Source of the DNA: Candidatus Nitrosopumilus sp.
GTDB lineage: Archaea; Thermoproteota; Nitrososphaeria; Nitrososphaerales; Nitrosopumilaceae
DNA length: 64,000 nt
Direction of reading: 5' to 3'
Assembly (NCBI GenBank): GCA_029864335.1
Contig: JAOTTS010000011.1
Span: forward strand, 1-64,000
Part shown: piece by piece, positions 33,347 to 51,862 of the stretch
Layout: every line of letters begins with the position of its first letter
Position numbering within the stretch: the stretch's first letter is position 1
Notes under the pieces: generated by a model
Told to the model about the DNA's origin: nothing
What the model saw: only the letters and a program-made list of their open reading frames with translations
Database searches by the model: none
Made by a program: the position numbers and the translations under genes

Positions 33347-33783
33347 TCAAGCATCCTTCATCCTTTTTGAGTAATCATAGTTGAATAATTTTTTAGGAGT
33401 AATTTCAATTGCCACCTCAGATTTAGAGTTTTCTCGTAAAAATTTTGAGAGAGTGGATTCTTTATCCCCCAAGTATTTCTTTATTAGAGTCTCAAGTATT
33501 TCAGCACCACTTTCTTCAATAATTTTTAGAGCCATCTCCCCGAACCCCCCCCCCCGTAAGGCGGTTTATCAGCAGCAATTTCAAATCCACATTTTGGATT
33601 ACTCTTTAGATATGAAACTATTTTCGCAGTTTTCTGTGTGGCACAATAAATTTTTTCATTTTCAATTGCATACCACAAAGAAATTACATTTGGAGTACCG
33701 TCAGGTTTGATAAAAGCAATCCTTATTGGTATTTTTTTATCATGAACCATTCCATCTAATTCGTCAGGGGATAATTTCTGCAT
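33347..33783 (-). pseudogene. pyridoxamine-phosphate-oxidase-like flavoprotein, frameshifted in a G11 tract
   Basis: The first part (33783-33526) encodes IPIRIAFIKPDGTPNVISLWYA and GFEIAADKPPYG, typical of PNPOx/F420-type split-barrel flavoproteins. At the PPY motif the coding strand has eleven G in a row and the frame runs into a stop. The rest of the domain (GFGEMALKIIEESGAEILE ... KLFNYDYSKRMKDA) continues in the other frame to 33347. One added G, or two removed, restores a normal roughly 145-residue protein. Phase variation or sequencing error are both possible. Confidence 0.8.
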
Positions 33784-33923: not shown

Positions 33924-33952
33924 ATAGTGCTGAAAATAATTGCTAGTGCCAA
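33924..33952 (-). promoter_or_regulatory. two 10-bp cluster boxes, 19 bp apart
   Basis: Read on the minus strand, TTGGCACTAG (33952-33943) and TCAGCACTAT (33933-33924), the latter immediately followed by a TATA-like ATATATC. This is the same arrangement as before 37653, 42490, 44597 and 50862. It probably controls the mini-peptide and flavoprotein genes to the left. Confidence 0.55.
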
Positions 33953-36747: not shown

Positions 36748-37653
36748 TCACTCTAATTCTAAAAGAATGTTTGTATTACCAAAGTTCTCATTGATTCTAA
36801 AATAGTATGTCTTTGAAGGATCATATTTGAACTCGGTTCCTCCATATCCAATATTTGGTCCAAAAAGAATGTTGAATTCCCTAGTATCACCAGGATTCAG
36901 TACAATTTCCCCGCTGGTAAAATCCATTCCGGAATATTTGAAGGCTTTGGAACCATCCCAAACATCATAGCTACAAATTGAAGGACTTGTGCAATGCATT
37001 GCAGTAATCTCAGAACTTGTATTCTCAGCTAGCATACGAATGGATAGTATGGCTTGCCCAGATGGACGAATTTCAAAGTCATTTCCTTCCGAGCCAACAC
37101 CAAACCAGTAATAGTTGATTGGTCCTAGTTCAAATTTTTCTGCATTGGTTTTATACTTGTATAGAGTAATTGCTTTTTTGAGTGGTTTTTCACAATCAAT
37201 TCTTTTGTAGCCAACCTTGATCTCAGAGCATTTTTCTAGTTCAGCCTCAAGTGATATCAATTTAGAATCAGTATTTTTTGGTTTTTCAGATATCATTTGT
37301 GTAGTTTCATTATTTGATGCAACTGAGATTAATCCAGTCTTTATCAAATGCTGAATGCCGTTTACAAATTCGCCATCAGTAATGGTACCATCTGCCCACC
37401 AACCAGCGTTGTTCTTTACCCAAGCAGGAACACCCTCTGATGTTTCAGAAGATATGGTTGTTGGAGGAACTACAATGATTCCATCTTTAATGAGAAATTC
37501 TATTCCGGAAATAAATTCAGATTCAGCTATAATTCCATCTGCCCACCAACCAGCGTTGTTCTTTACCCAAGCAGGAACACCTTCTGTATAAGCAAAAGAT
37601 GCTGTAGAAGCTAGCAGTAGAATTGCTGCGATTACAGTTATTGCGATTTTCAT
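36748..37653 (-). CDS. secreted protein with two PAWVKNNAGWWADG repeats
   Basis: 301 residues: signal peptide (ending ASFAYT), then two 48-residue modules each starting EGVPAWVKNNAGWWADG and ending in a hydrophobic LIKDGII-type helix. This module is common in Nitrosopumilus-type surface proteins, and I believe it forms small helical domains outside the cell. The C-terminal 170 residues are a beta-sandwich with two Cys near CTSPSICSYD. The repeats share 47 identical bases. The promoter carries cluster boxes. Confidence 0.8.
   Translation of the reverse strand: MKIAITVIAAILLLASTASFAYTEGVPAWVKNNAGWWADGIIAESEFISGIEFLIKDGIIVVPPTTISSETSEGVPAWVKNNAGWWADGTITDGEFVNGIQHLIKTGLISVASNNETTQMISEKPKNTDSKLISLEAELEKCSEIKVGYKRIDCEKPLKKAITLYKYKTNAEKFELGPINYYWFGVGSEGNDFEIRPSGQAILSIRMLAENTSSEITAMHCTSPSICSYDVWDGSKAFKYSGMDFTSGEIVLNPGDTREFNILFGPNIGYGGTEFKYDPSKTYYFRINENFGNTNILLELE
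37388..37434. repeat. 47-bp exact direct repeat, copy 1
   Basis: Identical to 37535-37581, 147 bases apart. It encodes the PAWVKNNAGWWADG module on the minus strand. Perfect identity at the base level, beyond what the protein needs, suggests recent duplication or gene conversion. Confidence 0.9.
37535..37581. repeat. 47-bp exact direct repeat, copy 2
   Basis: Second copy of the repeat at 37388-37434. Recombination between the copies would delete one 147-bp (49-residue) module in frame. Confidence 0.9.
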
Positions 37654-37674: not shown

Positions 37675-37770
37675 ATATTTAAGCTAGTGGTAAAGATGTA
37701 ACTAGTGCTAATTTTCTAAAAAGGATGTAAAAGTACCAAAACATAGTGCCAAATCAAAACATAGTGATTC
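37675..37770 (-). promoter_or_regulatory. TATA plus four 10-bp cluster boxes
   Basis: Plus-strand copies CTAGTGGTAA (37684), CTAGTGCTAA (37702), ATAGTGCCAA (37743) and ATAGTGATTC (37761). They are spaced 18, 41 and 18 bp. For the minus-strand repeat-protein gene the nearest box directly abuts the TATA-like TTAAATAT (37682-37675). The other pair lies close to the plus-strand gene at 37786. Confidence 0.6.
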
Positions 37771-39708: not shown

Positions 39709-40647
39709 TTGCAAATTATTATATTCTTAGTGCCAAAAAGAATAGTCTCGTTTTTGCCTAGTGCAACAGAATTACTTTATGAATTTGGAGTACAAGATTA
39801 TCTGTATGGAGTTACACATGAATGCAAATTTCCTCAAGATGCATTAACAAAGCCAAGAATTATCAATTCAGTAATTAATTCAGATGAATTAACAAGTAAT
39901 GAAATTGATACTATGACTTGTCAATTACTAAATGACGGAAAGGATATTTTTATAATTGATGAGAAAAATCTAAAGAAAGCAGATCCAGATCTAATAATTT
40001 CTCAAGAAACATGTGAAGTTTGTGCAGCATATACAAATCAAGTGAACAAAGCACTACAAATTCTTCAAACAAAACCAATGCTTCATTCAATGGACTCCCA
40101 CAACATGCACGAGATCATCCAATCAGTAATAAAATTGGGCAAAATACTAGATAAAGAAACTAAAGCAAAGGAAATCACAGAGTCACTTGAAAAAAGAATT
40201 CAGAATATCAAAAAAGATCAGAATGATGAAAAACCAAAAGTTCTTGCAATAGAATGGATTGAGCCATTTTTTACTGCAGGTCATTGGGTTCCCGAGATGA
40301 TAGAGATTGCTGGAGGAATTAACATGATAAGTAAAACAGGAGAACACTCAAGACGTCTAGATTTGCAGGAAGTAATTAATGCAGATCCAGACGTCATTAT
40401 CATGATGCCATGTGGCTTTGATGTAAACCGAACAATTTTGGAATACAAGAATGTTTTAAAAAGAAATGAAAGTTGGAATTCTCTTAAATCAGTGAAGAAA
40501 AATCAAATTTTTGCAGTTGATGCAAATTCATTTTTTAGTAAACCAAGCATCAGAACTATAGATGGAATAGAGATATTAGCAAAAATTATCCAGCTAGAGA
40601 AATTTGAAAATCTCAAAGTACCTAGTGAATCATTTTTACGACTATAA
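39709..40647 (+). CDS. BtuF-like cobalamin-binding protein
   Basis: 312 residues of the type III periplasmic-binding fold: RIVSFLPSATELLYEFG, GVTHECKFP, DPDLIISQETCEVCA, IEWIEPFFTAGHWVPEMIEIAGG. These match B12-binding BtuF-type proteins with the HEC motif. There is no signal peptide and no ABC transporter gene next door, so it may be a cytosolic B12 carrier. GTG at 39730 gives the conserved start VPKRIVSFLPS and may be preferable to TTG 39709. It fits a cluster rich in B12 proteins. Confidence 0.85.
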   Translation: MQIIIFLVPKRIVSFLPSATELLYEFGVQDYLYGVTHECKFPQDALTKPRIINSVINSDELTSNEIDTMTCQLLNDGKDIFIIDEKNLKKADPDLIISQETCEVCAAYTNQVNKALQILQTKPMLHSMDSHNMHEIIQSVIKLGKILDKETKAKEITESLEKRIQNIKKDQNDEKPKVLAIEWIEPFFTAGHWVPEMIEIAGGINMISKTGEHSRRLDLQEVINADPDVIIMMPCGFDVNRTILEYKNVLKRNESWNSLKSVKKNQIFAVDANSFFSKPSIRTIDGIEILAKIIQLEKFENLKVPSESFLRL

Positions 40648-40682: not shown

Positions 40683-41471
40683 TCATGCCCATGCAATAAT
40701 GCTATTTTCTTTTTCAAAAATTCCTAAAAACATTCCAAGAGTGATTCTAGGTGAATTTCCAGTGATTTTTGTAACCATATGATAATAATTAGGATTGATA
40801 AGTACAAGATCTCCTGATTTAAGATTTGGTATTTTACAGAATTCAGTTGATTTTACTAATTGGGACGAATATCCAAAGTCAATATTTCTAAATTTCTCAT
40901 TTTCTTTCACCCATTTTTTCTTGAAGATAATTACATCCCCTCCACTTTCAGATTCTTGCAAATGAAGTACACATGAAATTTGATGATCAATTTTTGATAC
41001 ACCAAATTCTATTCCCTCATATTTCACATCATCCTTGTGAATTGGAATCAGTTTTCCTTTTTTATGAATTCGTATTATGCAGCAAGAGTAGAATTTTTTC
41101 AATTCCTTTGCAGAAGATATTGAATAATCGGGTAAAATATCTCCAATTGCTTCACGTATTTTGATTGTAGGTGATTTTAATTGAGAGAAAACAGATTCAA
41201 ATATTTTTTCATGTTTTTTAGCATCATCAAAATAGTCATTTCTTCTGGTAGCATATGACATTAAAAAGGGCCCTATGTGATTAGACTCACCATTTAGGAA
41301 GGTAGATTTTTCAAAATTTAATCTATCAACTATTTTTTTGCACATTTTTTTATCATATACATTCTGAATGATTATTGCCGGAACTTTTCCATTTATCAGA
41401 GAATCAATATTTATAGAATTAATATTCATAGAATTAATTTTAGAGTAATCAAAAATTTTTGGTGTCCACAC
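40683..41471 (-). CDS. 2-oxoglutarate/Fe(II) oxygenase (prolyl-4-hydroxylase-like)
   Basis: 262 residues. Double-stranded beta-helix with the HxD pair in LIPIHKDDVKYEG, the distal His in INPNYYHMVTKI and the 2OG-binding Arg in SPRITLGMFLG. The family hydroxylates amino-acid side chains or small molecules. Substrate unknown. It shares a base with the upstream gene's stop, so the two are co-translated. Confidence 0.82.
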   Translation of the reverse strand: MWTPKIFDYSKINSMNINSINIDSLINGKVPAIIIQNVYDKKMCKKIVDRLNFEKSTFLNGESNHIGPFLMSYATRRNDYFDDAKKHEKIFESVFSQLKSPTIKIREAIGDILPDYSISSAKELKKFYSCCIIRIHKKGKLIPIHKDDVKYEGIEFGVSKIDHQISCVLHLQESESGGDVIIFKKKWVKENEKFRNIDFGYSSQLVKSTEFCKIPNLKSGDLVLINPNYYHMVTKITGNSPRITLGMFLGIFEKENSIIAWA

Positions 41472-41938: not shown

Positions 41939-42490
41939 TTAAATTTCAATGGAAATCCTTAGGAATTTTGAAATATTATCTATTGATCTTTGAATTACTG
42001 ATGGATTGGTTGAGAAAAATCCCCTGTATTGACCATCACCCATATTTTCAGCTATTAACCCAAATGGACCAGTTGAATTCTTTGTCACGACAATCCACAT
42101 ATCAGAAATATTTGTTCCATCGCAGCTAACCACTTGAGCGGTTTTTGGAGGTTGTTTAGCTAAGAAGGGATTATTGAAATTGCCTATAATCCAGGCTTTG
42201 GGAATTTTTTGAAGAATTTCAATATATCTGTCCTCAACGTACTTGTATCTTTTTTCAGTCTCAAAAGTTGCCAATAAAGGTACATTATGCTTTACAGCAA
42301 AATTTTCAAGCAAAATACTTAGTCGATATAGTTCTTTTCTTCCTGTTTTGAAATTAACATATCCGGCCTTGATGTATTCATCAAGAGTCCAGAGAATATT
42401 ATGATCTGTTATATCTGTAATTTCTTTTTCAGACAATCCAGGAAACTCATTCCAGAGCTCTTCCAAGAAACTGTTATACTGTGATGTCAT
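41939..42490 (-). CDS. DICT-like sensory protein (paralogue of 47012)
   Basis: Reading from the ATG at 42490 (183 residues): PLLATFETEKRYKYVEDRYIE, PKAWIIGNFNNPFL, then MWIVVTKNSTGPFGLIAENM and YRGFFSTNPSVIQRSID. The pattern resembles the DICT sensory domain found near light- and signal-responsive proteins; this is a moderate-confidence match. I chose 42490 over 42505 because it is 22-29 bases from the TATA and 30 from the adjoining cluster box, as in the other leaderless genes. A close paralogue sits by the photolyase. Confidence 0.7.
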   Translation of the reverse strand: MTSQYNSFLEELWNEFPGLSEKEITDITDHNILWTLDEYIKAGYVNFKTGRKELYRLSILLENFAVKHNVPLLATFETEKRYKYVEDRYIEILQKIPKAWIIGNFNNPFLAKQPPKTAQVVSCDGTNISDMWIVVTKNSTGPFGLIAENMGDGQYRGFFSTNPSVIQRSIDNISKFLRISIEI

Positions 42491-42511
42491 AACTGCTTTG
42501 TGCATCTTTAG

Positions 42512-42548
42512 TATTTAAACTAGTGGTAACTAAATATTATAGTGGTAA
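42512..42548 (-). promoter_or_regulatory. TATA plus two 10-bp cluster boxes, 19 bp apart
   Basis: Plus-strand CTAGTGGTAA (42520-42529) and ATAGTGGTAA (42539-42548). On the coding strand the near box TTACCACTAG is directly followed by TTTAAATA (42519-42512). Confidence 0.65.
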
Positions 42549-42609: not shown

Positions 42610-44034
42610 TCAAATTGGCTTTCCTTTGAATTGATAATCAATTACTTTGTGAAAAGTATTATGTGATGCAATAACTGCAAGTGCAGATAAGCCAGTCCAA
42701 ATGAAATTTCGGATAGTGATTAATTCATTTGGTTGATCCATTATTAGTGATGTATCAAACAACACATAGAAGTTATCAAATAACCAAAATGCCAAAGTTA
42801 CCCAAGAAAGTATTCCACCAATAAGAAATCCCAATCGGGTTTTACTTTTTATAAAAATTATTGCTGTAATTATTGCAACATACCATATGATACCGGCAAA
42901 AAGCCATATCGGTTCAAAAAGTTCAGATCTATCATCTAACCAGTAGTATGTAGTTCCAATAAGTGCCATTGCAATTAATGATGCCATCAGAAGTTTTTGA
43001 TTAATTTTGAAACCAGTACGTTCTTCCTTTAGCGGTGTTGTAGGTGGATTGTCTCTAATTTCCTGTGTTGCTATGTCAATTGATTCGATAACTGATTTGA
43101 GAGACACTTGAATTATTTTAGATATAGAATCATCAGTAACTATAGTATCATGAACAAGACTATCAATTAGAGGTCTAGCAAGAGATGCTTTCACAGGAGT
43201 TATCAGATCAACCCAGTACGAAGATAATCGAGTTGTCAAAAATGGAATTTGTATCACAAAAAGTTTTTTCCCCAAATATTTGGCATATACTCTCATCAAT
43301 TCCTCATAAGTTATTTTATCAGGTCCACCTATTTCATAGATATTACCAGATGTCTCAGGCTTTTCCATACATCCCCTAAGGTATTCTATTACATCATCAA
43401 CAGCAATAGGTTGTGCTAAAGACTTTACCCAAGAGGGGCAGACCATGACAGGTAATCTCTCTACAAGATATCGGAGCATAGCATAGGAACCACCCTGAGA
43501 TCCAATTATCAAAGATGCACGTAATTCAGTTACTGGAATGCCTCCAGATGCAAGTATTTCACCAACTTCCTTTCTACTTTTCATGTGTGGTGATAACGAT
43601 AGACTATCATTTACAAGACCGCCTAAATAGATTATCCTTTTTACACCAGCATTTGTAGCGGCTTTTAAGAAATTCTGAGCTTGAATTTTTTCACGATTAG
43701 CAAATTCCTTCCATTGTTCTTTGTTGCCCTCCATAGAATGAAGTAGGTAATATGCAACCTCAATTCCATTTAGGGCACGTTCCAATTCTTCAGGTTCAAA
43801 AACATCGGCCTGAACATATTTCACATTTGAGGTTTGGGGCATTTTTCTTCTCGACATGCCTTTTACAGAATAGCCATTTTTTGTAAGATTTGATATCAAC
43901 CTAGAACCAATAAATCCTGTAGAACCTGTAACCATAATACTGTAAGGCTTATTCTTTAAACTTTGAAAAGATGATGAATTATGAGACATACTTTCCGGAT
44001 TAATTTGATCAGTTTCCATTAAATTATCTTTCAA
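42610..44034 (-). CDS. SDR-type NAD(P)-binding protein with C-terminal membrane domain
   Basis: 474 residues. An atypical short-chain dehydrogenase fold: SIMVTGSTGFIGSRLI at about residue 32, NVKYVQADVFEPEEL, YYLLHSMEG, RIIYLGGL and YEIGGPDKITYEEL (complex-I-39-kDa/YbjT type). From about residue 345 there are four or five membrane helices. In bacteria, similar proteins sit near photolyase and carotenoid or B12-light regulons. It is the last gene of the operon 44597 to 42610. Confidence 0.82.
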   Translation of the reverse strand: MKDNLMETDQINPESMSHNSSSFQSLKNKPYSIMVTGSTGFIGSRLISNLTKNGYSVKGMSRRKMPQTSNVKYVQADVFEPEELERALNGIEVAYYLLHSMEGNKEQWKEFANREKIQAQNFLKAATNAGVKRIIYLGGLVNDSLSLSPHMKSRKEVGEILASGGIPVTELRASLIIGSQGGSYAMLRYLVERLPVMVCPSWVKSLAQPIAVDDVIEYLRGCMEKPETSGNIYEIGGPDKITYEELMRVYAKYLGKKLFVIQIPFLTTRLSSYWVDLITPVKASLARPLIDSLVHDTIVTDDSISKIIQVSLKSVIESIDIATQEIRDNPPTTPLKEERTGFKINQKLLMASLIAMALIGTTYYWLDDRSELFEPIWLFAGIIWYVAIITAIIFIKSKTRLGFLIGGILSWVTLAFWLFDNFYVLFDTSLIMDQPNELITIRNFIWTGLSALAVIASHNTFHKVIDYQFKGKPI

Positions 44035-44400
44035 TTAAAACACATCACTTAATTTTTTTAATTTTTTCAGATCGGTTATTTCTATATGGTTACTGAGTGT
44101 TATTATTTTTGCAAGTTTAGGGTTTGCCTTTTCACCCAGCTTAAGAACGGTTTCTCCTTTTAGTCTAATTTCAAGAGTTATTTTTTGTTGTTGCAAATTC
44201 TTTGCAAGATCTTTTGCTTCAGATAATTGTTTAATTAGACCAGGTCTGCTTGTTATTTCAATTGGAATGTCAAGAACGTTGATAATTCTTAAATCATCTT
44301 GTGCAATGAAATCAACAGAAGGCTCACCATCACAAGTGACTTTGAGGGAACCACGTTCCAAATAGGATAAAAAATAAGCAGGTAATTGAAAATCTTTCAT
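44035..44400 (-). CDS. hypothetical protein of the SDR operon (121 aa)
   Basis: Mixed alpha/beta, no Cys, with VDFIAQDDLRIINVLDIPIE in the middle and a Lys/Leu-rich helix at the end. It begins 11 bases after the preceding mini-gene and stops immediately before the SDR gene, so it is part of one operon. No family recognised. Confidence 0.7.
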   Translation of the reverse strand: MKDFQLPAYFLSYLERGSLKVTCDGEPSVDFIAQDDLRIINVLDIPIEITSRPGLIKQLSEAKDLAKNLQQQKITLEIRLKGETVLKLGEKANPKLAKIITLSNHIEITDLKKLKKLSDVF

Positions 44401-44617: not shown

Positions 44618-44655
44618 ATATTTAACATAGTGATAAATTTATTTTCTAGTGGTAA
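44618..44655 (-). promoter_or_regulatory. TATA plus two 10-bp cluster boxes, 19 bp apart
   Basis: Boxes ATAGTGATAA (44627-44636) and CTAGTGGTAA (44646-44655) on the plus strand, the near one adjoining ATATTTAA (44618-44625). The distal box lies inside the 3' end of the TFB gene. The ATG at 44597 is 30 bases away. Confidence 0.65.
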
Positions 44656-45638: not shown

Positions 45639-46985
45639 TTATTTTTGTGACTTAAACATAACTTTTGTTTTTTCAGATTCTATTTTATGAATCACTATTG
45701 GTTTCACATAGTCTATATCACTTGGGAAATCTTTCCACAAATTATGGATTGTTTTAGAGGGAATTCCATGTAATTCAGGAATCCATTTCTTGATATAGGT
45801 ACAATTAGCATCAAATTTTTCTTGTTGTAGCCATGGATTGAAAATTCGAAAATATGGAACTGCATCACAGCCAGTGGATGCAGCCCATTGCCAATTACCA
45901 ACATTTACAGCAGGATCATAATCCACAAGTCTTTTAGCAAAATATCGCTCCCCCCATCTCCAATCAATATGGAGATCTTTTGTCAGAAATGACGCAACTA
46001 TCATTCTGACTCGGTTATGCATAAATCCAGACTGATTGATTTGTCTCATTCCGGCATCAACAATTGGAAAGCCAGTTTTACCGTTAGTCCAGGCAGAAAA
46101 ATTCTCTTTAGATTTTGACCATTGAATTTTTTGGAATTTTTTCCTAAACGATTTATTTTGAGACCATGGAAAATGGAATAAAATATAGTTGAAAAATTCT
46201 CTCCAGTAAATCCCACCCATCAAGATATGTTCCGAGCCAAGTTGTTGTTCTATTTCATGATAAATCTCCCTTATTGATAAAGTTCCAAATTTGTTATGTG
46301 CAGATAATGTTGTAGTATGGCCAAGTCCTGGGAAATCTCGGAATTTTTTGTAATCTATGAATTTTTCTAAATTTTTTATGATTTTCAAGCCTTTCTTTCG
46401 ACCGCCTGGAATTTCTGGTTTTTTAATAGAGGGAATTTTAATTTGTATATTAGAAATTTTCTCATTGAAATAATTTTTTTTAGAATTTTTTGAAGATGAT
46501 CTAACAGAAAATTGACGAACCTTTTTGTAAAAATGTGAATAAATCATGTATGGTTTTTCATCGTTTGTTTTGATTTCATTTGGATTGTGTAGAAGAAAAT
46601 CCAATGAACAATTAAAATCAATATTATTTTGTTTACAAATTTGATTAATTTTTACGTCCCTATTTTTAGAATAGTTTGAAAAATCAGTATTTACAAATAC
46701 CGCATCAACATCATGTTTTGCAATAATTTCATTTACAATCAAATTAGAATTTCCCTGAAATATTTGAAGTGAAGTTTTTTTCTTTTTTAAATCCAAATCT
46801 AAATCCAATAATGATTCTGCAAGAAAATTCCACCTAAATTTAGAATCGTTTAAATTTTTTAGTAAATTATCATCATAAATAAAACAAGGAATTACAGTTT
46901 TAGAATTCGTGAGTGATTTAATTAACCCAGTATTATCATCTAATCTTAAATCTCGCCTAAAAATAAATAAGGATTTCTCATACAT
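45639..46985 (-). CDS. phr: deoxyribodipyrimidine photolyase
   Basis: 448 residues. N-terminal antenna domain (SLFIFRRDLRLDDNTGL), then the FAD domain with GGIYWREFFNYILFHFPW, FPIVDAGMRQINQSGFMHNR, and the active-site stretch NWQWAASTGCDAVPYFRIFN. It repairs UV-induced cyclobutane pyrimidine dimers using blue light (class I CPD type). It follows the DICT gene by 26 bases on the same strand, so they are co-transcribed. Confidence 0.95.
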   Translation of the reverse strand: MYEKSLFIFRRDLRLDDNTGLIKSLTNSKTVIPCFIYDDNLLKNLNDSKFRWNFLAESLLDLDLDLKKKKTSLQIFQGNSNLIVNEIIAKHDVDAVFVNTDFSNYSKNRDVKINQICKQNNIDFNCSLDFLLHNPNEIKTNDEKPYMIYSHFYKKVRQFSVRSSSKNSKKNYFNEKISNIQIKIPSIKKPEIPGGRKKGLKIIKNLEKFIDYKKFRDFPGLGHTTTLSAHNKFGTLSIREIYHEIEQQLGSEHILMGGIYWREFFNYILFHFPWSQNKSFRKKFQKIQWSKSKENFSAWTNGKTGFPIVDAGMRQINQSGFMHNRVRMIVASFLTKDLHIDWRWGERYFAKRLVDYDPAVNVGNWQWAASTGCDAVPYFRIFNPWLQQEKFDANCTYIKKWIPELHGIPSKTIHNLWKDFPSDIDYVKPIVIHKIESEKTKVMFKSQK

Positions 46986-47011: not shown

Positions 47012-47557
47012 TTATTGAATGGTGAATTTTGCGCCAAGTGTTTTACCCATTATCTTTAGGGCATATCTACAAACATTTGGATTAAGTGTAAAAAATCCTC
47101 TAAACATTCCATCTTCAAATTCTTCTGCAATCAAACCAAATGGGCCATAAGGTCCTCTTGTAATTACAGTCCAAACTTTTGCTAGATTCGTATTTCCACA
47201 ATTCAACACTTGAATTTTTGGAGGAGTTTTAAATTCTGTTTTTCCAAAATTTGCGATAACCCAAATTTTTGGGATTGTCTTTATCATTTCCTGATATCTT
47301 TTCTCAACAAATTTGTATCTTTTAATCTCTTCAAAAGATGCAAGCAATGGCTGACTATTTTTTTGAGCATAATCTTCAATTAGTTTACTAACATGAAACA
47401 AAGCCTTTCTTTCAGCTGAAAAATTATGGTAACCGGCCTCCACAAATTTATCTAAATTCCAAAGAGGAAGAATAGATTTATCCAAATTATGCCATTCTGC
47501 AAGTTGAGGAAATTCTGTCCATACTTGACCTACAAAATCAGTATAGGGAGCATCCAT
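47012..47557 (-). CDS. DICT-like sensory protein upstream of photolyase
   Basis: 181 residues, paralogue of the gene at 41939: PLLASFEEIKRYKFVEKRYQE, PKIWVIANFGKTEF, VWTVITRGPYGPFGLIAEEF and MFRGFFTLNPNVCRYALK. DICT domains accompany light and redox regulators in other prokaryotes. Operon with photolyase supports a light- or damage-sensing role. The promoter has a weak single cluster box at 47606. Confidence 0.72.
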   Translation of the reverse strand: MDAPYTDFVGQVWTEFPQLAEWHNLDKSILPLWNLDKFVEAGYHNFSAERKALFHVSKLIEDYAQKNSQPLLASFEEIKRYKFVEKRYQEMIKTIPKIWVIANFGKTEFKTPPKIQVLNCGNTNLAKVWTVITRGPYGPFGLIAEEFEDGMFRGFFTLNPNVCRYALKIMGKTLGAKFTIQ

Positions 47558-47622: not shown

Positions 47623-48060
47623 TTGTTTTTATTCTTTGAGTTATTACTTAAATTAATGAGGCGTTATGAAAAACTTCTCGACATGCTGATGGATTACAAC
47701 AATTCCATAAGGCTTGCTGCAATCAGCAGTACGACAGGGGAGATATTGTGGCACAGTAAAAGAAACGATGTCAAATTAAAGGTACCTCTAGCAGAGACAA
47801 AAAAAGCATTAATACGTGAAGCGATTGATTGGATTGATCGTTCAAAATTAGAAGACAGAAGTGAACTTGGAAGAGCCATGTATCATATAACATCTTTTGA
47901 AAAAATAAAAAGAATCACTATCCCAATAGATGCATTTCATCTTTTGTTTGTAAGTGTTGATAATGAGCCATTAAAGAAGACCAAAAAGAAAAGTTATGGA
48001 AGATTAGTGGAGATGGGAAAAATTATGTCAATTGTGGATTTTGTCAATACATTTGAATGA
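47623..48060 (+). CDS. roadblock/DUF6659-like protein (copy 1)
   Basis: 145 codons; the ATG at residue 13 (MRRYEKLLDMLMDYN) is probably the start because the next gene begins the same way. Pattern: SIRLAAISSTTGEILWHS, then helix, then HLLFVSVDNEP and SYGRLVEMGKIMSIVDFV. Similar to the following gene and, more distantly, to 60603. The fold resembles profilin/roadblock, and I believe it is DUF6659. Divergent from the DICT-photolyase operon. Confidence 0.7.
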   Translation: MFLFFELLLKLMRRYEKLLDMLMDYNNSIRLAAISSTTGEILWHSKRNDVKLKVPLAETKKALIREAIDWIDRSKLEDRSELGRAMYHITSFEKIKRITIPIDAFHLLFVSVDNEPLKKTKKKSYGRLVEMGKIMSIVDFVNTFE

Positions 48061-48208: not shown

Positions 48209-48607
48209 GTGGACAAGTACGAACAACTTCTCAATATGCTTATGGATTTTAATGAGTCAATTAGATTTGCAGCTGTTTGTGATAAGAATGGAGAAATTCT
48301 TTGGAACAGTCAACGAAAAGGAGTCAAAAACATTGTTCCACTTGAAGAAACCAAACAGACCATTTCACGAGCCATGGAGGGATGGGAAGAAAATTTTAGA
48401 ATCACCGACATAGTAGGTTCAGGACTGTACTCAATTACATCATATGAAAAAATTAAAAGAATATCGATTCCGTTGAATGATGGCAATTTGTTATTCATCA
48501 GTATAAACAATAAACCCATAGCCAATCTCAAGGGTAAGAGTTACGGCCATTTAGCCGAGATGGGAGAGATACTGTCCATAGTAGATTTTATTAAAGCAAA
48601 GAAATAG
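48209..48607 (+). CDS. roadblock/DUF6659-like protein (copy 2)
   Basis: 132 residues (GTG start) closely related to the preceding gene: KYEQLLNMLMDFNESIRFAA, GEILWNSQRKGVKNIVPLEE, YGHLAEMGEILSIVDFIKA. Tandem duplication. A single cluster box (TTATCACTAG, 48153-48162) lies 47 bases upstream. May be a small signalling partner of the B12-photoreceptor gene that follows. Confidence 0.7.
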   Translation: MDKYEQLLNMLMDFNESIRFAAVCDKNGEILWNSQRKGVKNIVPLEETKQTISRAMEGWEENFRITDIVGSGLYSITSYEKIKRISIPLNDGNLLFISINNKPIANLKGKSYGHLAEMGEILSIVDFIKAKK

Positions 48608-48619
48608 TTTTGAGATTAA

Positions 48620-48655
48620 TTAGCACCATTCAAATTAGTTAGCATTAGTTATATA
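48620..48655 (+). promoter_or_regulatory. two 10-bp cluster boxes plus TATA
   Basis: TTAGCACCAT (48620-48629) and TTAGCATTAG (48639-48648), 19 bp apart, the near box directly joined to TTATATA (48649-48655). The ATG of the CarH-like gene at 48677 is 29 bases from the near box: a leaderless promoter of the cluster class. Confidence 0.65.
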
Positions 48656-48676: not shown

Positions 48677-49519
48677 ATGGTATACATTAGATCTAAAAAA
48701 GTAAAGTCTGACCAATATCTTTATCTGGTAAAGAGTGTCTGGAATTCAAAAAAGAGTACATCAAAACAAGAGATTATAAAATATCTTGGCAAGGCATCAG
48801 AAGTAGTAAAAGATGACATACCAGTAGACTATAGAGATGATCCTAAAGTTTTATCAGTTCTTGCATCATTTAATCCAAAAGACATTAGAAAAAGAGAAGA
48901 TGCAAGCAAAAAATCAAAGAAGCAATTATACAAAAAATTAACAGATGGAAATATTCAAGAATGTGTTAAAATTTTTGAAGAATACGTAAAAATATTTAAT
49001 ACATCAGATTTTTTTGACAAAATTCTCAAACCCGTAATGTATCAAATTGGGGAAGATTGGGCCAATAACAAAATAAGTATTGCCACAGAGCATGTAGCAA
49101 GTAACATTGCACTAACTTTGGTAAAAATAATTATGGATAAAGTTTCAGGTTCTAGAAACAAGGAAAAAATTCTAATCTGTGTTCCATTGGGCGAAGAACA
49201 CCATTTAGGATGTGATGTGTTAGAAACATATCTATCCATTAAAGGATACAAAGTATACAATATTGGGACATCAATCCCAACAGAATCAATTCTAACATTT
49301 ATTGAAAATGATAAACCTGACGCAGTACTAATTTCAATTACAATAGAAGATAACTTACTAGCAGGACAAAGACTAGTAAAAAAGATCAAAGATCAATATA
49401 AAATTCCAATAGTAATTGGCGGAAGAGCTGTACAAGCAGAAAAAATTCCAAAGCTTGATGCTCAGATAATTCGAGATACATGCCTTGAAGATATTCCAAA
49501 AATACTAAGAAAATTATAA
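48677..49519 (+). CDS. CarH-like adenosylcobalamin photoreceptor module protein
   Basis: 280 residues. A helical cap domain (about 85-158) with W128-x9-E138-H139 (WANNKISIATEH), the Wx9EH motif of CarH/LitR light sensors. It is followed by a B12-binding domain with E173-x-H175-x2-G178, S220-x-T222 (exactly 41 residues after G178) and the GG pair 248-249. CarH binds adenosyl-B12, which is broken by light to change oligomer state. The N-terminal region (1-45, YLYLVKSVWNSKKSTSKQEI) replaces the MerR DNA-binding domain and resembles IS1634-type transposase N-termini. It is probably a light- or B12-sensing regulator that acts through a partner. Confidence 0.85.
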   Translation: MVYIRSKKVKSDQYLYLVKSVWNSKKSTSKQEIIKYLGKASEVVKDDIPVDYRDDPKVLSVLASFNPKDIRKREDASKKSKKQLYKKLTDGNIQECVKIFEEYVKIFNTSDFFDKILKPVMYQIGEDWANNKISIATEHVASNIALTLVKIIMDKVSGSRNKEKILICVPLGEEHHLGCDVLETYLSIKGYKVYNIGTSIPTESILTFIENDKPDAVLISITIEDNLLAGQRLVKKIKDQYKIPIVIGGRAVQAEKIPKLDAQIIRDTCLEDIPKILRKL

Positions 49520-49527
49520 TGGAAAAT

Positions 49528-50862
49528 TTAAGATTTTAAGTAGGATTGAATTTTAGGTGTGCATAAAATTGAGCTATGTGCCGCAGAATCTGTGCATATA
49601 CCATAACTAATTGTAGAGTCACCAACAAAAAATAAACCTTCAATCCCGGGTATTTGATGAGGCATTTTTGATTTCCAAACCATTCCCGGTTCTTTGACTA
49701 CGGACTCTACAAGTTTCCAAGCCATTGGCCTTTCCCATAACAATGACGAATTAAATTCGGGATAAATTGAGGAAATTTCATCCTTCATTTTTTCTACGAT
49801 TTCTTTAATTTTTACAGGTTCATCTGCTACAGAAGGATCAACAGGAGTACCGGCAATGATCAAGTGTTCTCCTTTTGGAGAAACAGATGGAGTAATGTTG
49901 GATATAAAGAAAATTCCTTTTGTTGTGAATTGATTTCCAACAGGAAAAATAACTTGACGGGAATCAATTTTGGAGTTTAGTGCGAAATGAACCTCAACTA
50001 CAGCAGTTTTTTTATCTAAGCGATTTATTTTTTCAACAAATTGTCTGTCAATTACATTATCATCAAATAATTGATTGAGAGCAATATACGCAGGATAAGA
50101 CACCACAACACAGTCAGATTTAAAAAAAGTTCCATCATTTTCTATAATTCCAACTACTCTAGAATTCTCAATGACAATTTTTTTCACAGAATGATTTGTT
50201 TCGATGGTTCCATTATTTTCAACAATATAATCTGCTAAAACTCTTGAAATAGAATCATAACCACCATCATCAGGATATGCAAATTCACTTGTACCTCCTT
50301 TGAAAGGATTTGCGCGGATAATTGTTCTTGCAAATTCACCCAACGAAATATGTTCAGCAGTGTCAGCAAATGCCAGTATGCAGACTGCCTCAAAAAAAGC
50401 ATTTGTGTCAGGATCAAGATTCTTTGTAATTTCAGTTAATGATTTGTCATCCCATTGCTCTGTTTGTTCAATAGATGAAAATGCCATAGGGAGTAAAAGT
50501 TTCAGCAATCTAATTCTGCTCTTAAAGGGTATTAGCGAAAGTCGTAGTAAGTCACCCATTCCTTTAGGATATTTATGAAATCTACTCTCAGAATGAAATG
50601 CAATTTCATCAACTTTAACCAATTTCAATCTAGATTCAATTCCAATTTCTTTTAAAATACTAAAAATTGCAGATTTTTTGTAAAATGGCATTATATGAAA
50701 GCCATTGTCTAGAATATGATTGCGATATTTCATAGAGGCAGTTCTGCCCCCCAATTTAGATGATTTTTCTAAAATTCTGACTGAATGGCCTTGTTTTGAG
50801 AGTAGAGCTCCAGTTGTCAAGCCGCCAACACCAGCACCAATTATTACTGCAGTTCTAGCCAT
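49528..50862 (-). CDS. phytoene-desaturase-like FAD oxidoreductase
   Basis: 444 residues. Dinucleotide-binding start VIIGAGVGGLTTGALLSKQGHSV with RILEKSSKLGGRT, a DNGFHIMPFY segment and the closing GLFFVGDSTISYGICTDSA flavin motif. The family includes carotenoid and bacteriochlorophyll desaturases and retinol saturases. In bacteria CarH controls carotenoid genes; here the CarH-like gene is convergent, 9 bases away. Substrate unproven. The promoter carries two cluster boxes. Confidence 0.88.
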   Translation of the reverse strand: MARTAVIIGAGVGGLTTGALLSKQGHSVRILEKSSKLGGRTASMKYRNHILDNGFHIMPFYKKSAIFSILKEIGIESRLKLVKVDEIAFHSESRFHKYPKGMGDLLRLSLIPFKSRIRLLKLLLPMAFSSIEQTEQWDDKSLTEITKNLDPDTNAFFEAVCILAFADTAEHISLGEFARTIIRANPFKGGTSEFAYPDDGGYDSISRVLADYIVENNGTIETNHSVKKIVIENSRVVGIIENDGTFFKSDCVVVSYPAYIALNQLFDDNVIDRQFVEKINRLDKKTAVVEVHFALNSKIDSRQVIFPVGNQFTTKGIFFISNITPSVSPKGEHLIIAGTPVDPSVADEPVKIKEIVEKMKDEISSIYPEFNSSLLWERPMAWKLVESVVKEPGMVWKSKMPHQIPGIEGLFFVGDSTISYGICTDSAAHSSILCTPKIQSYLKS

Positions 50863-50881: not shown

Positions 50882-50920
50882 GGTATTTATGCAGGTGCTA
50901 ACAAAATGGCAGAGTGCTAA
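50882..50920 (-). promoter_or_regulatory. TATA plus two 10-bp cluster boxes, 19 bp apart
   Basis: Plus-strand CAGGTGCTAA (50892-50901) and AGAGTGCTAA (50911-50920); the coding strand reads TTAGCACCTG then CATAAATACC. The ATG at 50862 is 30 bases from the near box. Confidence 0.6.
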
Positions 50921-51371
50921 TTTTGGAAATGGTTAATAGAAGATTCAAATTTTTCAGCAGCAATGATAAATTTGCCCATGGTGGCAGTCATTTTATTTTT
51001 AAGATAATTCTCTAAAAATCCAAATAACCTAAAAAATCCATTAAGAACTAATTTTACATGTATAGAAATTATTGTTCCGTTCCCTGATTGAATGTATGTT
51101 TCAGTAAAAACAGTACCACTAGTAGGGCCACTTAAAATATGAATTTCATGTACGTTTGGTTTGATAATCAGATGTTTTGTTTTAATTGTTAAGGGAATTT
51201 TAAGAAATTTAATTTTTCAATAACAATGTTCCCATAATGGTTTTCTTTTATTATTTTAAGTGATTTGAAATATTCAGGCATGACATTATGAAAATTCTCA
51301 ACATCAGTGCTTATTTGAAAAATCTTGTTTTGAGATAATGATGAGCAACGCTCCATTGTAAAACTTTTCAA
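50917..51371 (-). pseudogene. SRPBCC (polyketide-cyclase/START-like) protein, frameshifted
   Basis: The first 60 codons (CSSLSQNKIFQISTDVENFH, then NVMPEYFKSLKIIKE) look like the start of an SRPBCC lipid/ligand-binding domain. After FLKF the frame stops. In the next frame the protein continues PLTIKTKHLIIKPNVHEIHI, then GTVFTETYIQSGNGT, and ends with a helix KFIIAAEKFESSINHFQN at 50917. One missing C near 51194 accounts for it. Its ATG overlaps the preceding gene's stop. The 3' end overlaps the distal cluster box of the neighbouring promoter. Confidence 0.7.
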
Positions 51372-51730
51372 TTTTTAATCACCATAGATAGATAATTAGA
51401 TAGATTTGTCTGTATTATCTGAAAGTTTGGATAGTGACTCATGATTTGTTCTGCAAGCAGGGCCATAGAAAATTTCACACCATCAGTCTTTTCAGGATCA
51501 GTGTTAGGGTATAACCTAATGGTTGTTTTTGATTTTCGTGTTGAAATTTCTATCAAAAACTGCTGATGTTTTTCAGATCTTACAACTGCAGGTAACAGCG
51601 CAGTAAGTTTCTCCTTGTCCACAAAAATGTTAGTAACCTTAATCAAAATTGGGTCTCTTTGAAATATTTCTGCAAACTTTTCTGAGAAATCATCAAGATC
51701 AATTCTTTCACCAAACACAATATGAGGCAT
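51368..51730 (-). CDS. hypothetical protein coupled to SRPBCC gene (120 aa)
   Basis: Mixed alpha/beta protein with VFGERIDLDDFSEKFAEIFQ and FLIEISTRKSKTTIRLYP. No family recognised. Overlaps the SRPBCC gene by four bases. TATA-like GATATATATC near 51755, with a cluster box one period further upstream (51782). Confidence 0.7.
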   Translation of the reverse strand: MPHIVFGERIDLDDFSEKFAEIFQRDPILIKVTNIFVDKEKLTALLPAVVRSEKHQQFLIEISTRKSKTTIRLYPNTDPEKTDGVKFSMALLAEQIMSHYPNFQIIQTNLSNYLSMVIKN

Positions 51731-51781
51731 TATATACTATTTTAGCAGTTTTTGATATATATCTAAAAATTAAAAAAAGTC

Positions 51782-51862
51782 CTAGTGCTAAATTATAAGA
51801 ATTTTTTAATGATTTTACGCATACATTAGCACTAGTTAAGAAATTATTTTCATCTTATATAA
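51782..51862. promoter_or_regulatory. divergent promoter with two opposed cluster boxes
   Basis: CTAGTGCTAA (51782-51791) serves the leftward gene and TTAGCACTAG (51826-51835) the rightward genes. A TATA box TTATATAA (51855-51862) lies 20 bases after the latter, and the ATG at 51883 follows as expected for a leaderless mRNA. The boxes are perfect and inverted, 44 bp apart. Confidence 0.65.

Follow-up and report, generated by a model that had tools for sequence, protein, structure and literature searches.

Bioinformatics analysis of a 64,000-nt stretch of the genome of Candidatus Nitrosopumilus sp. (contig JAOTTS010000011.1; hereafter, the window) revealed a gene whose product, referred to here as the CBD protein, is probably an AdoCbl-dependent transcription regulator that responds to light, works in the manner of CarH and acts as a repressor in the dark. 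With somewhat less assurance, the gene and its relatives are read as the first archaeal B12-based photoreceptor family, that is, a light-dependent repressor found across the ammonia-oxidizing archaea (AOA), which would combine a CarH sensor with a novel beta-sheet DNA-binding domain shared with transposases, a direct-repeat operator with 19-bp spacing at TATA boxes, and a photo-oxidative-stress regulon. AOA are abundant nitrifiers, among the commonest cells in sea and soil, and are light-sensitive; no established light-sensing pathway in AOA was found in the literature searched. The predicted operator sites and their target genes, as listed below, bring light regulation in AOA within reach of direct tests. 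If true, the proposed reading would make available a new DNA-binding module that responds to green light and would bring archaea into B12 photobiology, and the operator would serve as a DNA-level handle on the lineages that keep the light response.

The following features were assigned to the gene:

48677–49519, + strand: CBD protein, predicted CarH-like AdoCbl photoreceptor/regulator (ORF, 280 aa)
48677–48826, + strand: N-terminal beta-meander domain, residues 1–50, proposed to bind DNA (conservation, model, profile)
48920–49147, + strand: four-helix bundle of the cobalamin-binding module, residues 82–157 (PF02607 at residues 82–151; model)
49058–49093, + strand: Wx9EH light-sensor motif, W128...E138H139 (invariant, 101/101 orthologs)
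49154–49462, + strand: Rossmann B12-binding domain, residues 160–262 (PF02310; model)
49193–49210, + strand: ExHxxG motif with the putative lower axial ligand H175 (motif and conservation)

An earlier note on this DNA had drawn attention to a Wx9EH motif (W128, E138, H139) and to the B12 signature ExHxxG-x41-SxT-x25-GG with exact spacing. Both were recovered in the 280-aa ORF, where the former is exact and the latter reads E173-x-H175-x-x-G178-x41-S220-x-T222-x25-G248G249. The motifs are far from chance: the Pfam matches to B12-binding_2 (residues 82–151; E-value, 8.6e-11) and B12-binding (residues 165–254; E-value, 6.3e-13) are above cut-off, and W128, E138, H139, E173 and H175 are conserved in all of the 101 AOA orthologs described below. 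The published photoreceptor signature comprises four elements, GxxW, EH, GxxH and GxxxP (PMC11796333), and all of them are present in the CBD protein (G125xxW128, E138H139, G172xxH175 and G197xxxP201). The host genome also encodes cob(I)alamin adenosyltransferase, which is required for AdoCbl, and B12-dependent methionine synthase (852-aa frame).

A search for homologues and their genomic context, as suggested in the earlier note, yielded an AOA family with recurrent neighbours: full-length relatives (E < 1e-20, the cut used for scoring presence or absence per genome) were found in 145 out of 400 genomes of the class. The family spans Nitrosopumilaceae, Nitrososphaeraceae-like and other AOA families, and the named records are Nitrosopumilus, Nitrosarchaeum and Nitrosomarinus. 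No copies of the gene were found in phages or in IMG/VR. An incomplete literature search gave no report of such a family in AOA; members may be present, without being discussed, among the 1,561 putative photoreceptors listed by SignatureFinder (PMC11796333). Residues W128, E138, H139, E173, H175 and P201 are invariant in 101/101 AOA orthologs, down to ~38% identity, and the GxxW, EH and GxxH elements are retained in 100 of the 101; a separate alignment of the family comprised 62 sequences. Residue 129 is never His among the orthologs, and therefore the bis-His light state of TtCarH cannot form, which argues for a light state like that of CtMerR or the photocobilins, proteins that also lack the bis-His residue (PMC11796333).

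Paralogs L109–L114 and L120 have lost W128, E138 and H139 but retain the N-terminal domain. Several adjoin MEDS and DICT genes, in some loci together with photolyase genes, and by analogy with CarA and CarH they may represent a light-insensitive partner. Protein L162 (312 aa; genome contig C6, near 2225) combines a helix-turn-helix-like region at its N-terminus with a B12-binding-like domain without cobalamin ligand motifs, and is possibly a cobalamin-independent relative.

The AF2 model of the CBD protein (mean pLDDT, 88.3) bears out the structural comparison with CarH proposed in the earlier note, as every one of the 50 best PDB matches is a structure of TtCarH/LitR, CtMerR or a photocobilin. 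Photocobilins were also the best relatives in a profile search of the PDB (E-value, 1e-22), with a match covering residues 81–252 only. In a tree of 63 cobalamin domains, a clade with 100/100 support unites the methyltransferase and MetH domains and leaves the AOA family outside, and the AOA proteins fall on the side of the Wx9EH proteins. The CarH branch lies inside the AOA clade, a weak placement on long branches from which no reading was drawn; the exact relation between the AOA proteins and CarH is unsettled in the tree because of these long branches. The nearest NCBIfam model is that of CarH (NF052513), with a score of 69.9 bits, which does not reach the cut-off of 400 bits. No MerR domain was matched in the CBD protein by Pfam or NCBIfam, a three-stranded beta domain being present instead; no region corresponding to a globin-like bilin domain was seen in the 280-aa model, and no DDE catalytic domain was found by Pfam, protein L146 with its DDE_Tnp_1 domain serving as the comparison. 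With no MerR domain and a score below the NF052513 cut-off, the CBD protein is not to be filed as CarH. Judged by its sequence, it is probably a B12 photoreceptor-regulator of a new form, CarH-like in its working.

Compared with CarH/LitR (T. thermophilus CarH, PDB 5C8A/5C8D; NF052513), the CBD protein has in common the AdoCbl-binding helix bundle and Rossmann domain, the Wx9EH and ExHxxG motifs and, with respect to Thermus, the neighbouring photolyase and NDUFA9-like SDR. A direct-repeat element at the TATA box of the CBD gene and of other genes may be the counterpart of the promoter-overlapping operator of CarH. The differences are that CarH/LitR has a MerR winged helix where the CBD protein has the N-terminal beta-meander domain, that both the sequence and the 19-bp spacing of the predicted CBD operator depart from the CarH consensus, that H132 of CarH has no equivalent, and that the CBD system is associated with archaeal promoters, in a genome where phytoene synthase was not matched. 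Photocobilins, or photoglobin-B12 proteins (8J2W, 8J2Y), share the Wx9EH motif, the lack of a bis-His residue and a non-MerR architecture, but carry a globin/biliverdin domain in contrast to the N-terminal beta domain of the CBD protein. CtMerR (8JBS/8JBT) is a close structural match with a light state without bis-His ligation; unlike the CBD protein, it is a bacterial MerR-family protein.

In the AF2 model, residues 1–50 form three antiparallel strands (pLDDT, 94), and the mean net charge of the domain is ~+7 over residues 1–40. Residues R5, K7, Y14, Y16, V18, W22, Q31, K35, Y36, G38 and P49 are 99–100% conserved, and the conservation of the domain among the 101 orthologs exceeds that of most of the sensor. 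A profile search with the domain retrieved the N-termini of DDE_Tnp_1 transposase and Fic proteins, as well as short stand-alone proteins in Thermoproteota; therefore, the IS1634-like N-terminus which the earlier note placed where the DNA-binding half of CarH would be is a real resemblance, extending over a domain of ~50 residues. What the IS1634/IS4-type transposase and Fic proteins have in common with the CBD protein is the short beta domain (Y-x-YLV-S ... Q-x-x-x-KYLG), whereas the DDE or Fic domain that follows in them is lacking in the CBD protein. The domain, which is not matched by Pfam, appears to be a mobile module of protein N-termini. Foldseek against the PDB gave nothing significant for it (best E-value, 1.3; PC4 at E-value 2), and its sequence profile likewise yielded no fold identity. 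The domain is proposed to bind DNA, a reading supported by the predicted operator described below. The Fic-domain proteins of AOA genus g8 (L148–L151) start with the same short beta domain.

Alignment of the promoters of the family gene led to the prediction of two elements in front of the CBD gene:

48620–48647, + strand: predicted operator of the CBD gene, TTAGCACCA-N10-TTAGCATTA, direct repeat with spacing 19
48649–48655, + strand: TATA box TTATATA, abutting the operator

The operator consensus consists of TTRSCAYTA direct repeats 19 bp apart that abut the TATA box (TTAGCACTAK-N9-TTAGCAYTAG-TTAWATA in the aligned upstream regions), and it usually starts 57 bp before the ATG of the CBD gene; in CarH, direct repeats also overlap its promoter (PMC8156234). 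High-scoring operators were present in 69/107 CBD-family promoters, a denominator that includes paralogs and distant families. Over the fetched loci, 54 half-site pairs have a spacing of 19, 12 a spacing of 18, and no more than 7 any other spacing; a TATA-like box follows 47 of the 54 pairs at spacing 19. Most of the more distant (Nitrososphaeraceae-type) orthologs are low scorers without an operator directly 5' of the gene, though some of these orthologs have it there or where the gene run begins. In the 1.95-Mb genome of the window, only seven sites with ≤1 mismatch occur. Four of them lie in this region, in front of the CBD gene, the DICT-cluster gene, the run ending in the SDR gene and the PNPOx-like gene, and contig C48 has the other three, including one in front of TspO. 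With ≤2 mismatches, 17 matches were obtained versus 11 for the reversed pattern; the two-mismatch sites outside the cluster are thus at background level and were not used. Divergent single half-sites are located at 51764–51850, between a 120-aa gene (51368–51730, - strand) and a TFB gene (52014, + strand), with no clear second half.

The further putative operators and their candidate target genes in the window are:

42521–42548, - strand: operator, 0 mismatches, before the DICT-like gene (pattern search)
41939–42505, - strand: DICT-cluster protein 1, 188 aa, grouped with the DICT-like protein at 47012–47557; no Pfam match of its own
44628–44655, - strand: operator, 1 mismatch, before the run of a small ORF, the 121-aa protein and the SDR (pattern search)
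44035–44400, - strand: 121-aa protein in the same run as the SDR (ORF)
42610–44034, - strand: NmrA/NDUFA9-like SDR, the most conserved neighbour of the family (neighbourhood comparison)
37685–37711, - strand: operator, 0 mismatches, spacing 18, before the gene of a secreted-type protein (pattern search)
36748–37653, - strand: secreted-type protein with VPAWVKNNAGWWADG repeats, a recurrent target (relatives)
33925–33952, - strand: operator, 1 mismatch, before the PNPOx-like gene (pattern search)
33526–33783, - strand: PNPOx-like protein, apparently frameshifted (ORF and relatives)
50893–50920, - strand: degenerate operator TTAGCACTC-N10-TTAGCACCT with ATAAATA, ahead of the CrtI-like gene; relatives have better-preserved copies
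49528–50862, - strand: CrtI-like protein of the FAD amine-oxidase superfamily (Pfam/NCBIfam)

The frameshift in the PNPOx-like gene seemingly follows a G-rich run and could be a sequencing error. In relatives, the genes that recur downstream of the operator encode SDR, CrtI-like oxidase, DICT, PNPOx, the secreted-type protein and small membrane proteins, and a uracil-DNA glycosylase gene was found there once. The predicted operator targets include DICT, TspO and oxidase genes, not B12 genes.

The presence of the operator tracks that of the photoreceptor gene. Operator sites other than that of the CBD gene itself were found in 15/16 CBD-positive versus 3/16 CBD-negative Nitrosopumilaceae genomes (p = 2e-5); the genomes are related, so that this and the other p-values overstate the association and serve as a guide only. 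Two of the three CBD-negative genomes with sites look like chance, and the third is G111, which has operator-like sites and a photolyase and in which the gene may be missing through an assembly gap. The picture was similar in a further set of 40 genomes, which represent other genera and families, and over both sets (72 genomes) perfect non-self sites occur in 10/36 CBD-positive and 0/36 CBD-negative genomes. Loss of the light response as a block would leave the same pattern of operator and gene without direct binding.

The earlier note had listed a photolyase, a BtuF-like protein, two TFBs and a phytoene-desaturase-like gene as neighbours. The first three entries stand, while the last is no more specific than a general amine-oxidase/CrtI-superfamily FAD protein: phytoene synthase (PF00494) is absent from the genome (95.6% complete), with matches obtained in control genomes, and the label of phytoene desaturase is doubtful for this reason. 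On the same ground, a link with carotenoid biosynthesis is not supported and was rejected. The neighbours of the CBD gene include:

45639–46985, - strand: DNA photolyase, without an operator of its own (Pfam/NCBIfam)
47012–47557, - strand: DICT-like protein 2, upstream of the photolyase on the same strand (PF10069; E-value, 3e-4, below cut-off)

All of the 22 photolyase-positive genomes of the genus are CBD-positive, compared with 34/64 of the rest (p = 1e-5; related genomes), and 28 out of 57 photolyase genes have a CBD-family gene within 12 kb, in several different arrangements, where about one would be expected. An operator was looked for before the photolyase genes and was mostly absent; the link of the photolyase is therefore one of gene distance and co-occurrence, and the gene is not counted as a demonstrated target. 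Epipelagic AOA are known to have photolyases (PMC9239080). The SDR of the window is similar to the NDUFA9-like protein beside carH of Thermus brockianus (E-value, 1e-16), the photolyase gene (phr) likewise adjoins Thermus carH, and a MerR-B12 gene of Azoarcus is divergent from an FAD oxidoreductase gene. Elsewhere, DICT and MEDS domains are reported to be fused to light-responsive B12 domains (PMC11796333); in AOA, they are neighbours of the CBD family, as are, recurrently, the BtuF-like gene (39709–40647 in the window) and, in 36 loci, TFB genes. As far as gene content indicates, the targets and neighbours of the CBD gene resemble bacterial carH/litR loci.

The possibility envisaged in the earlier note, a light sensor of archaea whose output domain is new, is thus supported by the signature, predicted fold, phylogeny, neighbourhood and linked operator, and the sequence data suggest that the output of the new domain is binding to DNA, at a specific operator of direct repeats. 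CarH in the dark is an AdoCbl-bound tetramer on promoter-overlapping direct repeats, and light cleaves the Co–C bond, which leads to disassembly and derepression (PMC8156234). The CBD protein presumably binds AdoCbl and undergoes photolysis as well. In the dark, AdoCbl would be held between the four-helix bundle and the Rossmann domain, with W128 and E138-H139 capping the adenosyl group and H175 as the lower ligand. The AdoCbl-bound state would drive dimer or higher assembly and place the basic N-terminal domains on the two TTRSCAYTA repeats, and occupancy of the operator at the TATA box would block TBP/TFB. From the analogy with CarH and from the second repeat abutting the TATA box, we infer dark repression as the sign of regulation. 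Blue-green light would break the Co–C bond and loosen the assembly, derepressing the regulon, which would include the CBD gene itself and the genes for the NmrA/NDUFA9-like SDR, the CrtI-like FAD oxidase, DICT, the PNPOx-like protein and TspO.

Other explanations were weighed against the same data. It is conceivable, albeit unlikely, that the CBD protein senses light without binding DNA of its own and acts by protein–protein contacts, as AerR or stand-alone photocobilins do, on another factor that reads the operator, e.g., a nearby regulon-specific TFB. The closeness of TFB genes, the position of the second half-site where the BRE of TFB lies and the precedent of stand-alone photocobilins, which work via protein contacts (PMC10979010), agree with this; however, a TFB leaves the second identical repeat 19 bp upstream unexplained, the operator is found together with the CBD gene and lies in the promoter of that gene itself, and the N-terminal domain is basic and common to transposases. 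It is also highly improbable that the repeat is a general promoter element of AOA without relation to the photoreceptor, with the clustering of the genes due only to a common sunlit habitat. Although the genomes are related and photolyase genes are mostly without the repeat, the genome has just the seven near-perfect sites, four of them in this region, and sister genomes without the CBD gene have nearly none.

The remaining explanations concern the cobalamin. A sensor of AdoCbl level, which would be DNA-bound with AdoCbl and report cobalamin status instead of light, would fit a genome with B12-dependent methionine synthase and adenosyltransferase and a recurrent BtuF-like neighbour, but is very unlikely given that the genes associated with it are those for photolyase, DICT, TspO and oxidase, given the lack of B12 genes among the operator targets, and the invariance of the adenosyl-capping Wx9EH. 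A corrinoid methyl carrier of a methyltransferase system (TIGR02370, MtaC/MtbC), the alternative raised in the earlier note, is scarcely credible. In its favour are the two-domain B12 fold common to both and weak matches to TIGR02370 and MtaC/MtbC, but the pyl_corrinoid methyltransferase model TIGR02370 gives 48.9 bits against a cut-off of 215.3. The methylamine and methanol corrinoid proteins fall in their separate 100/100 clade and have DxHxxG and no Wx9EH, in contrast to the ExHxxG and Wx9EH of the CBD protein, and Pfam scans of the neighbours showed no methyltransferase. By tree, score and motif, this candidate was rejected.

Two further observations were made in the window. The ORF at 40683–41471 (- strand) matches the WelO5-type Fe/2OG halogenase family (94.9 bits against a cut-off of 27), which is unexpected in AOA. 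Directly upstream of the CBD gene, two tandem paralogous small proteins are encoded (47623–48060 and 48209–48607, + strand), the first of which has a weak match to DUF6659, and relatives of these proteins recur near DICT and photolyase genes.
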